Assembly (NCBI RefSeq): GCF_023634865.1
Contig: NZ_JAMLJN010000004.1
Span: 124,001-188,000 of the forward strand
Reading direction: 5' to 3'
Source of the DNA: Flavobacterium fragile
GTDB taxonomy: Bacteria; Bacteroidota; Bacteroidia; Flavobacteriales; Flavobacteriaceae
DNA length: 64,000 bases
The notes beneath the pieces were generated by a model, which had not been told where the DNA came from, searched no databases, and worked only from the letters and a program-made list of their open reading frames with translations. Below are positions 53,090 through 58,733 of this stretch, piece by piece; the stretch's first letter is position 1, and every line of letters starts with the position of its first letter. The translations under genes were made by a program, and so were the position numbers.

Positions 53090-54316
53090 ATGTTAAAACG
53101 CGCTTTCCATAAATATATCGATAATTTCAGAGGCTTTTCTCGCGAAATTTGGATTCTTACCTTAATAACTTTCATCAATCGTGCCGGAACTATGGTGCTT
53201 CCTTTCTTGTCAAAATACTTGAAAGAAGATTTACATTTTTCGTACAGCCAAGTCGGATGGATTATGGTGAGTTTTGGTTGTGGTTCCATTTTAGGATCTT
53301 GGTTAGGCGGAAAATTATCAGATAAAATCGGGTTTTACAAAATCATGATTTTCAGTTTATTAACTAGTGGATTTGCTTTTTTTGGTTTACAATTTATAAC
53401 GAGCTTCGAAGGTTTAATAATCGCCATGTTTTTAATCATGACCGTTGCCGACATGTTTCGTCCCGCCATGTTTGTATCTTTAGGAGCTTACGCCAAACCC
53501 GAAAATAGAACGCGCGCTTTAACGTTAGTGCGATTAGCCATTAATTTAGGTTTTGCAGCAGGTCCAGCACTTGGAGGCTTGTTAATTATGAGTGTTGGCT
53601 ATAAAGGATTGTTCTGGGTAGATGGTGCCAGTTGTATTTTGGCGATATTAATTTTTTGGATTAAAGTCAAAGAAAAGAAAAAATCAAAATACACAGATAA
53701 GGAACATCCTGGCGAAGTGTTAACCCATTCGGTTTTTAAAGACACCCCTTTTTGGATTTTCTTAACGGGAACTTTAATTACAGGAATTTTATTTTTCCAA
53801 TTGTTTACAACTATTCCTTTATATCACAAAGAACAATTCAACTTAAGTGAATTTCAAACTGGATTGTTATTGACATTAAATGGTGTTTTGGTCTTCTTAC
53901 TAGAAATGCCAATCGTGAGTTATATCGAAAAACATAAAATCAACAAACTAAAAGTCATTACGTATGGTTGTTTGGCAATGGCGATAAGTATTTATTTGCT
54001 ATTAGTAAACAATTGGGCTGGCATTTTAATTATCATGATGATTTTCATGACATTTGCTGAAATGTTCGCTTTTCCATTTTCGAATTCTTTTGCCATGAGT
54101 CGCGCTCCTAAAGGTCACGAAGGTCGTTACATGGCCATTTTTACGATGAGTTATAGTTTGGCTCATATTTTAAGTGCCAAAACAGGAATGGAAATTATTT
54201 CTTTATTCAGTTATCAAACCAACTGGTTTTTTATGGGAACTCTTGGTGTTATTGGTGTTTTACTTTTCATTTGGACCAAAAAAATAGTAGCAAAAGAACC
54301 TCCAAGAAATCTTTAA
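53090..54316 (+). CDS. MFS transporter
   Basis: A 408-residue inner membrane transporter with 12 predicted helices. The conserved loop 2-3 motif is GGKLSDKIGFYK. The N-terminus has FINRAGTMVLPFLSKYL, the middle loop is short and charged (VKEKKKSKYTDKEHPGE), and the C-terminus ends TKKIVAKEPP. It belongs to the drug/peptide-type MFS of Bacteroidota; the substrate cannot be read from the sequence. Its stop codon abuts the first BlaI-type operator of the next gene. Confidence 0.92.
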   Translation: MLKRAFHKYIDNFRGFSREIWILTLITFINRAGTMVLPFLSKYLKEDLHFSYSQVGWIMVSFGCGSILGSWLGGKLSDKIGFYKIMIFSLLTSGFAFFGLQFITSFEGLIIAMFLIMTVADMFRPAMFVSLGAYAKPENRTRALTLVRLAINLGFAAGPALGGLLIMSVGYKGLFWVDGASCILAILIFWIKVKEKKKSKYTDKEHPGEVLTHSVFKDTPFWIFLTGTLITGILFFQLFTTIPLYHKEQFNLSEFQTGLLLTLNGVLVFLLEMPIVSYIEKHKINKLKVITYGCLAMAISIYLLLVNNWAGILIIMMIFMTFAEMFAFPFSNSFAMSRAPKGHEGRYMAIFTMSYSLAHILSAKTGMEIISLFSYQTNWFFMGTLGVIGVLLFIWTKKIVAKEPPRNL

Positions 54317-54372
54317 AACTAAAAATTTAGTTAAATAACTATAAAAACAGTTGTGAAACTAAAAATATAGTT
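54317..54372. promoter_or_regulatory. Three tandem BlaI-type operators
   Basis: Three copies of AACT-N8-AGTT lie at 54317-54332, 54337-54352 and 54357-54372, starting exactly 20 bp apart. The inner eight bases are A/T-rich. BlaI/MecI proteins bind similar dyads. The sites cover the -33 region and reach into the spacer of the promoter for the BlaI-like gene, so autorepression is likely. Confidence 0.75.
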
Positions 54373-54381
54373 ATAGATTTG
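54351..54381 (+). promoter_or_regulatory. Promoter of the BlaI-BlaR1-type operon
   Basis: TTG (54351-54353), 20 nt, TAGATTTG (54374-54381), 20 bp before the ATG at 54402. The second and third operators overlap it. Confidence 0.65.
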
Positions 54382-54401
54382 ATTTATCAAAACGATAAGT
54401 C

Positions 54402-54761
54402 ATGCAAAAACTAACCAACAAAGAAGAAGAAATCATGCATATTTTATGGAAGCTTAAAAAAGCTTTTGTAAAAGATATCATGGAAGAAATCACTGATGAT
54501 AAACCTCATTACAACACGCTTTCTACTATTGTTCGTAATTTAGAGGAAAAAGGATATGTAAGTCATAATGCTTACGGAAAAACGCATCAGTACTTTCCTA
54601 TCGTTAAATTGGAAGATTACCGAAAAACCTTCATGAATACCGCTATTGAAAATTATTTCAATAGTTCGTACAAAAATTTAGTTTCCTTTTTTGCTGAAGA
54701 AGAAAAGATTTCGGCAGATGAACTTCGTGAAATTTTAGCATTAATCGAAAAAAAGAAATAG
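54402..54761 (+). CDS. BlaI/MecI/CopY-family repressor
   Basis: A 119-residue winged-helix repressor. It starts LTNKEEEIMHILWKLKKAFVKDIMEE, with the recognition helix in HYNTLSTIVRNLEEKGYV and a dimerising helical end FFAEEEKISADELREIL. Members are inactivated when a partner membrane protease (BlaR1 type) triggers their cleavage. The partner gene starts 1 bp downstream. Three operator-like dyads precede the gene. Confidence 0.93.
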   Translation: MQKLTNKEEEIMHILWKLKKAFVKDIMEEITDDKPHYNTLSTIVRNLEEKGYVSHNAYGKTHQYFPIVKLEDYRKTFMNTAIENYFNSSYKNLVSFFAEEEKISADELREILALIEKKK

Positions 54762-54762
54762 C

Positions 54763-56787
54763 ATGGAAAATCTACTGCTCTATTTTGTAAAAGCAAACGG
54801 ACTCATCATTCTGTTTTATTTGATGTACGTTTTATTTCTCCGAAAAGAAACCTTTTTTACCACCAATCGTTGGTATTTGATTAGCGGTTTGGTATTGTCT
54901 TTGATTTTACCTTTGATTACGTTTACAAAAACGATTTGGATGGAACCAACACCAATTCCAGTGGTATATGAAGAGGTATTTTATGCTAATAACAATGCGT
55001 TTGAATCTCCTATTCAGGAAACAACTTTAGATTGGACTTTAATTTTAACTACAGTTTATACAGTAATTTCAATCTTACTATTGATGAAAATTACTTTTGA
55101 ATTGGCATCCTTTTTTAATAGAATCCGTAAAAATGAAAAGCAAAAAGAAACCAATTATATCTTAATTCATTCTGATACAACGGAAAATCCATTTTCGTTT
55201 TTTCATTACATTGTGATTAATCCGAATCGATTCTCTAAAGAAGAATTCCAACATATTTTAACGCACGAAAGCATTCATGTGAAGCAAAAACATTCCATTG
55301 ATGTATTGCTTTCAAAACTGTTTTGTGCTTTCTTTTGGGCAAACCCAATCGTTTGGTTGTATCGAAAAGCGATGTTACAAAACTTAGAATTTATTGCCGA
55401 TAACGAAACTTTTCAGCAAATCGAAAACAAATACAAATATCAAAGAACCTTATTAAAAGTAGTGACTCATCAACACGACTTAAGTATTACAAATCAATTT
55501 TATCAATCATTAATCAAAAAACGAATCGTTATGTTACACACAAATCAATCCCACAAAAGAAATGCTTGGAAGTACGGAATTATTCTTCCGCTATTAGTAG
55601 GTTTCATCTTATTATTCCAAATTGAAACAGTGGCGCAAGTAAAAGAAAATTCAAAAGTAACAGCTTATGCTGTTGAAGTGGATTATTCTCATATTGTTAC
55701 CTCTAAAACTTCAGATACTGAAATTAAAGAAATTGAAAATGCATTTAAAGGTGATGAGTTCACTTTAAAAATCAGCAATTTAAAACGTAATAAAGAAGGA
55801 GAAATCATCGAAATTAAATTAGAATTTTCCTCTAAAAAGAATTCTAAATCTAAAAATATAAAAATTGTAAAAGGTGACAAACCAATTCAACCAATTAAAA
55901 TTTTCATAAAAGAGGACAAGAATGAAGAAAAAAGTGTTGGATTTGAAGAAGTTTCAAATTTAGTTACTGGAAAATATATTTCTTTAGATGAATCAATTGA
56001 AGCCGATTCAAATTCCGAAGGCTATACAATTGATAATATGGTTAAAAATGGAAAAAAAGTAAAAATGATTATCAACGGAAAACTACAATCAGAAAATGAC
56101 AAAATTAAAATTCCATTAGATCAAGAATTAGATGTTTTAAAAGAACTAGATGAAAAAGAATTAAAATCAAAATACAACATTGATAAAAAAGAAGGCGAAA
56201 TTTATTATGAATTATTGACTAAAAAAGAAGAAGACAAAATCGCTAATACTAGTTGGGGAATAAGTTATCAAGCAGGTCCACCAAGTACTGAAAAATTTAT
56301 TGAAGATTTAGCTAAAGACCAAAATATAGATCTTTCAAAATCAAAAATAATATTTAATGGGGTTGAATATAAACAATCAGAATTAAACAATATTGATTAT
56401 AAAGATTTAAAAAAAATAAACATAACCATTAATAAAAGTCAGAATAAAACTGAAAATGATATCATTATTTTAGAAACTAAGAATGAAAATTTAAAACCAT
56501 TTGAATTCAAAAAGATTAGTAGCGATAAACCAAAACCAAGAGTTATAACCATAAAAAATGGTGATGATGTTGTTGTTTTTGATGGTGACAAAATTAAGTT
56601 CCCAGGCTATCCTACGCACTATTTAAAACAACTGAAATTAGAATTAAAAGGTAAAATTCTGGAAGACAATATTGATTTCTTTAAAAATTATGAGTTTGAA
56701 AAAATTAAAGACCTAATCATTATTGAAGATGAAATGTCACCAAAAGAAAAGAAAAGAATAAAAAAAATAATTATTGAAACCAAATAA
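54763..56787 (+). CDS. BlaR1-like M56-family membrane metalloprotease
   Basis: A 674-residue membrane protein with four N-terminal helices (about residues 5-25, 36-55, 92-115 and 270-285). Its cytoplasmic zinc site is HESIH (H168, E169, H172) followed by FIADNETF, which holds the third ligand. From about residue 290 a long Lys/Glu-rich periplasmic region contains repeated beta segments. It lacks the penicillin-binding domain of BlaR1, so the signal is not evidently a beta-lactam. No beta-lactamase gene is nearby. It pairs with the BlaI-like repressor. Confidence 0.9.
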   Translation: MENLLLYFVKANGLIILFYLMYVLFLRKETFFTTNRWYLISGLVLSLILPLITFTKTIWMEPTPIPVVYEEVFYANNNAFESPIQETTLDWTLILTTVYTVISILLLMKITFELASFFNRIRKNEKQKETNYILIHSDTTENPFSFFHYIVINPNRFSKEEFQHILTHESIHVKQKHSIDVLLSKLFCAFFWANPIVWLYRKAMLQNLEFIADNETFQQIENKYKYQRTLLKVVTHQHDLSITNQFYQSLIKKRIVMLHTNQSHKRNAWKYGIILPLLVGFILLFQIETVAQVKENSKVTAYAVEVDYSHIVTSKTSDTEIKEIENAFKGDEFTLKISNLKRNKEGEIIEIKLEFSSKKNSKSKNIKIVKGDKPIQPIKIFIKEDKNEEKSVGFEEVSNLVTGKYISLDESIEADSNSEGYTIDNMVKNGKKVKMIINGKLQSENDKIKIPLDQELDVLKELDEKELKSKYNIDKKEGEIYYELLTKKEEDKIANTSWGISYQAGPPSTEKFIEDLAKDQNIDLSKSKIIFNGVEYKQSELNNIDYKDLKKINITINKSQNKTENDIIILETKNENLKPFEFKKISSDKPKPRVITIKNGDDVVVFDGDKIKFPGYPTHYLKQLKLELKGKILEDNIDFFKNYEFEKIKDLIIIEDEMSPKEKKRIKKIIIETK

Positions 56788-58725: not shown

Positions 58726-58733
58726 TACATTTG
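58726..58733 (+). promoter_or_regulatory. smpB promoter -7 element
   Basis: TACATTTG ends only 8 bp before the smpB ATG, so the transcript should have almost no leader. Confidence 0.6.

Follow-up and report, generated by a model that had tools for sequence, protein, structure and literature searches.

A conserved 20-bp ladder of predicted BlaI operators in the promoter of a Flavobacterium blaI–M56 gene pair

It is mainly through drug resistance in Firmicutes that BlaI-type repressors have become known. Here we analyze a stretch of 64,000 nucleotides from Flavobacterium fragile (contig NZ_JAMLJN010000004.1, positions 124,001 to 188,000; called the window below) in which a gene for a BlaI-like repressor, followed by a gene for an M56 membrane metallopeptidase, is preceded by three copies of the dyad AACT-N8-AGTT with a period of exactly 20 bp. 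The array stands in a nearly fixed register with the promoter, is conserved in the genus and beyond and co-occurs with BlaI genes. From these comparisons it appears very probable to us that the blaI–M56 pair is autorepressed by up to three BlaI dimers at the operator–promoter of a predicted two-gene operon.

Results and Discussion

A three-site array in the blaI promoter

The dyads can be read directly from the sequence: site 1 (AACTAAAAATTTAGTT) at 54317-54332, site 2 (AACTATAAAAACAGTT) at 54337-54352 and site 3 (AACTAAAAATATAGTT) at 54357-54372. Each is 16 bp long, the gaps between them are AAAT and GTGA, and the 20-bp period with starts at 54317, 54337 and 54357 that an earlier sequence-only reading had proposed is exact. 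The classical 16-bp dyad frame with the ends RNYK and MRNY is matched by all three sites, which agree with the published 16-base CopR/CopY consensus in 10, 8 and 10 of its 12 specified positions.

The promoter comprises a −7 element TAGATTTG (TAnnTTTG) at 54374-54381, again read directly, and an inferred −33 element TTG at 54351-54353, both on the forward strand; TTG is what we take to be the −33 consensus. Since TAnnTTTG of F. psychrophilum lies at −12 to −5 (PMC9723704), transcription is predicted to start near 54386, and the three sites would then extend from −69 to −54, from −49 to −34 and from −29 to −14. The final two T of site 2 are part of the −33 TTG, and site 3 occupies the spacer between the two promoter elements, ending 1 nt before the −7 box. 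The overlap with the promoter claimed in the sequence-only reading therefore holds for site 2 (two bases) and site 3, but not for site 1, which lies upstream of the −33 element and starts directly after the stop codon of the gene upstream.

The gene behind this promoter (54402-54761, forward strand, ATG at 54402) encodes a protein of 119 amino acids that is indeed BlaI-like, as had been supposed: PF03965, the Penicillinase_R family of the BlaI/MecI/CopY superfamily, is matched over the full domain length (residues 4-116) with an E-value of 2.9e-31 and 108.6 bits, the cut-off being 22.6. By sequence the nearest solved structures are MecI and BlaI, and the closest named relatives are Flavobacterium proteins, for example from F. 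cucumis with 99% identity. None of the named NCBIfam models (CopY/TcrY, MecI of mecA or mecC, BlaI of BCL or MRSA) is matched by the protein; the best score is 48.7 bits with a cut-off of 121.95, and the other four are far below their cut-offs. Elsewhere in the same genome a weak PF03965 match is located within an 821-aa open frame (G000:C22:218295-218468).

The array is not a chance repeat

A single AACT-N8-AGTT is ordinary in this genome and is weak evidence by itself. The window contains 6 loose matches with 2.17 expected, a number reached by 3 of 100 shuffles, and genome-wide 135 were counted against 150 for the reversed control pattern. The tandem pair with 20-bp spacing is highly non-random: in 100,000 rounds of dinucleotide shuffling, the 85-bp region never gave even a single pair. 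When two mismatches are allowed, the window has 2 pairs (0.11 expected), and the exact pair is present in the 2.69-Mb genome at this locus only (two overlapping pairs; control 0). Even a tighter pattern with three mismatches returned this place alone from the genome, the reversed control giving 1 match. A plasmid search with the promoter yielded no match.

It could be argued that the array is a chance repeat in A+T-rich DNA, or a repeat kept for hairpins or by a mobile element, considering that the region is 81% A+T and that the genome shows no excess of the single motif. The shuffles, however, are not compatible with this explanation, nor is the occurrence of the pair in 82 of the 148 sampled genera of the family. 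Furthermore, several positions of the N8 and of the 4-bp gaps vary while the spacing stays constant, in a set that was chosen for exact arms. On the basis of the shuffles and of the conservation in genus and family we rejected this explanation, to which we assign next to no probability.

Occurrence in related genomes

The 20-bp pair was found in 152 of 199 genomes of the same genus, the reversed-pattern control in 1 of 199. A family sample of 149 genomes, two of them Flavobacterium, contains the pair in 83 genomes (control 0), and a phylum sample in 32 of 296 (control 2). Of these 32 genomes, 17 belong to the same genus, from which 18 had been sampled; the same family accounts for 3 and other families of the same class for 12, and none is labelled as sharing only the phylum.

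The sequence-only reading had named conservation upstream of orthologs as a test that could speak against it, and the outcome of this test was in its favor. As a set independent of the motif we took the 111 BlaI loci of the genus with the best E-values in the PF03965 profile list, made up of the window's own, a first lot of 30 and a further 80; as the loci were drawn from the top of the list, weaker paralogs are under-represented. An exact 20-bp pair precedes 85 of these genes and an 18-bp pair 5, with neither present at 21. Upstream of 16 of the 21, at a distance of 11-82 nt, another open frame terminates whose tail is plug-like; we read these 16 genes as probable second copies in blaI–M56–blaI–M56 operons, the frames being seen in part. 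Apparent tandem arrangements of this kind are visible at L099, L106, L113-L115, L117, L118, L120-L125, L133, L137, L141 and L292, the second blaI having no array of its own. At L032 the contig end cuts within site 3, and the 105 nt upstream at L091 hold no ladder. At L143 the two outer sites of the ladder each deviate at one position, and L119 and L126 have one exact site and one with a single mismatch, 20 bp apart.

In a second set of 80 loci, found by similarity to BlaI and having some genomes in common with the first, 77 possess the 20-bp pair. Three exact sites are found at 50 of these, 26 have a third site in register with at most two mismatches, and a single locus has two sites only; the spacing between successive exact sites is 20 bp in all 127 cases. 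The three sites of the window recur unchanged at locus L229 of the Flavobacterium cucumis type strain. The misses are L247, with 43 nt upstream, L266, with a one-mismatch ladder, and L292. At L292 the ATG is found 26 nt after the end of a 604-codon frame, with the array at a distance of 2,280 nt upstream, and the gene is therefore a second copy. In both sets the sites are thus conserved upstream of orthologous genes.

Register with the promoter

Pooling of the two sets yields 166 distinct upstream regions, in which another dyad with at most one mismatch occurs at lag 20 in 232 cases and at lag 40 in 91. Among the other lags from 8 to 45, lag 18 is represented five times, lag 27 four times and each of the remainder at most twice. 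The register was analyzed with 138 distinct BlaI genes, found by profile or by pattern, of which 110 have an exact pair and 106 of these could be anchored on TAnnTTTG. The distance from the last site to TAnnTTTG is 1 nt in 99 of the 106 promoters and 0 nt in 7. Counted from this last site, the rung of site 1 (−40) is occupied exactly in 59 of 106 promoters and with at most one mismatch in 88, whereas the exact occupation of the rungs of site 2 (−20, 106 of 106) and site 3 (0, 103 of 106) has to be seen in light of the selection of the set for an exact 20-bp pair. No exact site is present on the next rungs (0/106 at −60, 0/104 at +20), and at positions off this 20-bp grid a site with at most one mismatch is present in at most 2 of 106. 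The base directly after site 2 is G in 68% of 62 aligned promoters. Between the array and the ATG lie 13 to 193 nt, whereas within the array the spacing is nearly invariant; insertions and deletions therefore happen outside the array and hardly ever inside.

The sites could also act independently, each dimer occluding a part of the promoter, with the 20 bp stemming from the distance of TTG to TAnnTTTG in the promoter and from the duplication history and with no contact between dimers. This would oppose cooperativity only and not the binding of BlaI. Sites 2 and 3 indeed keep a fixed position relative to the −33 and −7 boxes, the paralogs with 18 bp use what would be another workable spacing, and the affinity of the related repressor CopY is not significantly raised when the DNA carries two operators (PMC7253601). 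The spacing from site 2 to site 3 could be dictated by the promoter. That from site 1 to site 2 could not, yet it is also 20: site 1 precedes the promoter elements and nevertheless keeps its 20-bp distance with very few exceptions, and two-site arrays across the class likewise have a spacing of 20. This unforced spacing is the main sequence argument that neighboring dimers may touch each other, and hence for the cooperative repression by several dimers which the sequence-only reading had predicted from the phasing. Independent action we regard as a possibility of some weight, though on balance a doubtful one.

Association with BlaI genes

Within the genus the array was found in 151 of the 166 genomes that match PF03965 and in 1 of the 33 that do not (odds ratio 322, Fisher p 2e-24, kinship not corrected). 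Fifteen genomes have a PF03965 match and no array. Six of them contain weak matches only (E-values above 1e-5); in the other nine the sole strong match is an EEQLM-type paralog (6 genomes), the paralog with 18-bp spacing is found (2) or the ladder is mismatched (1). The type of operator varies with the type of repressor. BlaI proteins of the LTNKEEEIM type have 20-bp ladders and those of the LTKAEEEIM type of the genus have 18-bp pairs with a third site 29-34 bp further on (5 loci), while at nine EEQLM-type loci two TACA-N2-TGTA sites 27 bp apart (2 loci), one such site (1) or none (6) were seen. More distant BlaI paralogs with PTESELEIL-like starts show dyads with TACGA arms 24-30 bp apart (L342, L361, L362, L370, L375, L376, L377).

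We also considered a different regulator, or a nucleoid protein, as the one that binds the array, blaI being merely its target gene. Ten arrays in other genera or species, located upstream of exported proteins with no adjacent BlaI gene, would fit this explanation, as would the one genome (G034, 60% complete) that has an array and no BlaI match. However, 32 of the 33 genomes of the genus without a PF03965 match are also without the array, the operator type follows the BlaI paralog, and a similar half site, GACTAT, is bound by a BlaI protein elsewhere (PMC8457756). A regulator other than BlaI therefore seems improbable to us.

PF03965 is found in 59 of 149 class genomes. For 76 BlaI genes outside the genus we searched the last 100 nt for dyads of any arm sequence, and lag 20 proved to be the top spacing (26 genes; the next-best lag 5 genes), while in 200 shuffles of this set lag 20 was reached by at most 4 genes and any lag by at most 6. 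The lag-20 pairs are concentrated in genes closer to the BlaI of the window, 23 of 47 at 131 bits or more having one and 1 of 29 below, with a cut that was picked after seeing the list. Three exact 20-bp sites are rarer outside the genus (L327, L354; weaker sites at L356 and L379). Phasing at 20 bp would thus seem to be ancient within a single branch of BlaI, and it is missing from many BlaI genes of the class.

Candidate targets in other species

The genome search for a regulon with the single motif, recommended in the sequence-only reading, gave no signal, the tight pattern matching 10 times against 14 for the control in addition to the loose counts given above. A regulon defined by the single motif was rejected. 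Three of the eight tight sites outside the array were examined (L161, L162, L163), and all three are inside open reading frames. The organism's own GLPGLI genes (L187-L190) have no exact dyad.

At least three pair matches were counted in 4 of the 199 genomes of the genus; two matches can also be two separate arrays. From genomes with several arrays or unseen flanks 17 regions were chosen. BlaI is present in 7 of them, an exported-type gene lies downstream in 8, and one region each ends at a contig border (L156) or has neither (L159). The 20-bp pair at L159:1519 adjoins an antiporter-like gene, no BlaI gene being seen there; antiporter-like genes also neighbor blaI at L144, L153 and L157. Arrays without BlaI precede starts that by eye resemble signal peptides at L145, L146, L148, L149, L150, L152, L154 and L155, and also at L035 and L044 from the family sample. 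A Pfam analysis of these ten genes gave CarboxypepD_reg for three, Porph_ging for two, an S41 peptidase, a ChaN-like protein and DUF6624 for one each and no match for one; the tenth resembles an outer membrane protein barrel below the Pfam cut-off. In another family of the class the array of L193 is located upstream of a MacB/FtsX permease, and the other 16 new loci of the phylum sample have BlaI at 15 and not at L197. The exported, outer-membrane and MacB-like genes in other species are candidate BlaI targets and may form a regulon.

Model of regulation

The M56 gene (54763-56787, forward strand) encodes 674 amino acids with a BlaR1-like protease part (PF05569, E-value 3.3e-14), the HExxH motif being HESIH at residue 168. 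No penicillin-binding sensor domain was found, as the whole protein has no transpeptidase-type Pfam match with E-values up to 0.001. Residues 301-674 have no Pfam match above the cut-off and none of transpeptidase type with E-values up to 1, a PDB sequence search gave no match, and the score with the model blaR1_generic (46.7 of 400 bits) is far under the cut-off. Among orthologs (L208-L226) the C-terminal part is highly divergent, some ending with plug-like motifs (KYGEKGKNGVIEI) and others with long charged or coiled-coil-like repeats. Upstream, the control region is bounded by an MFS transporter gene on the same strand (53090-54316). As to a beta-lactamase or PBP gene under the control of the array, the neighbors that were tested are the MFS and M56 genes, and in the genome the exact 20-bp pair occurs at this locus only.

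According to our model BlaI dimers would occupy the three 16-bp dyads. The dimer at site 2 would reach the −33 TTG, that at site 3 would sit next to the −7 box within the spacer, and a third one, at site 1, would be held a little further upstream and would face nearly the same side of the helix (20 bp corresponding to about 1.9 turns). Bound BlaI would block RNA polymerase and thereby keep blaI and the M56 protease low. A signal sensed by the periplasmic part of M56 would, in analogy to BlaR1, activate the zinc protease, which would cut BlaI and derepress the operon. In Staphylococcus aureus BlaR1 cleaves BlaI at Asn101-Phe102 (PMC9834060). The stretch aligned with this position is LVSFFA in the BlaI studied here and contains SFF in 117 of 140 sequences, which makes cleavage of a similar kind plausible. 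Because no sensor domain of the penicillin type was found in M56, a beta-lactam bound by this protein itself is an unlikely signal.

Several points weigh against autorepression by phased BlaI dimers. The core TACA-N2-TGTA is not present in the three sites, four matches being found in the window with the nearest at 58726. In this genome exact, tighter and mismatch-tolerant searches found no target beyond the protein's own operon. Neither operator type precedes 6 of the 9 EEQLM-type paralogs of the genus, and for 50 of the 76 BlaI genes of the class the last 100 nt lack dyads paired at 20 bp. Finally, the CopY affinities imply that several operators need not mean cooperative binding.

Comparison with known systems

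BlaI_0696 and BlaI_1845 of Clostridium thermocellum are reported to have arrays of two ordered dyads, with room for up to four protomers, and to show signs of self-regulation; the authors restricted the regulons to operons with paired sites and proposed a response to beta-lactams (PMC8457756). The half site GACTAT resembles AACTAT found here and both systems have ordered arrays. They differ in that there are two dyads in C. thermocellum and three here, and the section on arrays of that report gives no 20-bp constant. In the bla divergon of Bacillus licheniformis there are three BlaI operators (OP1, OP2, OP3) and a BlaI–BlaR1 pair, as here, and the OP1 probe contains TTACATATGTAA; those operators, however, lie between two divergent operons including the beta-lactamase gene, whereas here all are in one promoter (PMC3305447). 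The CopR/CopY repressors, a related family, use the 16-base frame RNYKACANNTGTMRNY and often two operators (PMC7253601). The inner CA/TG of this frame is incomplete in our sites, the paired operators are mostly 24-39 bases apart (mode 26) instead of 20, and metal is sensed via Cys-X-Cys, whereas the translation of the BlaI-like protein has no cysteine. S. aureus BlaI–BlaR1 likewise combines a repressor with an M56 metalloprotease (PMC9834060), but in the partner found here no penicillin-binding sensor domain was detected.

Among the matches listed in our literature search, which mostly did not extend to subscription papers, there was no study of BlaI operators in Bacteroidota. The rigid 20-bp ladder appears to be new, and so do its depth within the class, its half site with an incomplete inner CA/TG and its combination with a partner without a penicillin sensor. 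Tentatively, and with more doubt than confidence, we suggest that BlaI–M56 may be a class-wide, beta-lactam-independent switch for envelope surveillance. In such a switch a ladder of BlaI dimers with 20-bp phasing would assemble on the promoter, and M56 would serve as the sensor and also as the main output, which in Flavobacterium would close the loop; in some relatives the same ladder would have spread to genes for outer-membrane and exported proteins (CarboxypepD_reg, GLPGLI, S41 peptidase). The finding provides a precise operator code with a testable spacing rule, and the array could be used as bait to learn what these widespread sensor-proteases control.
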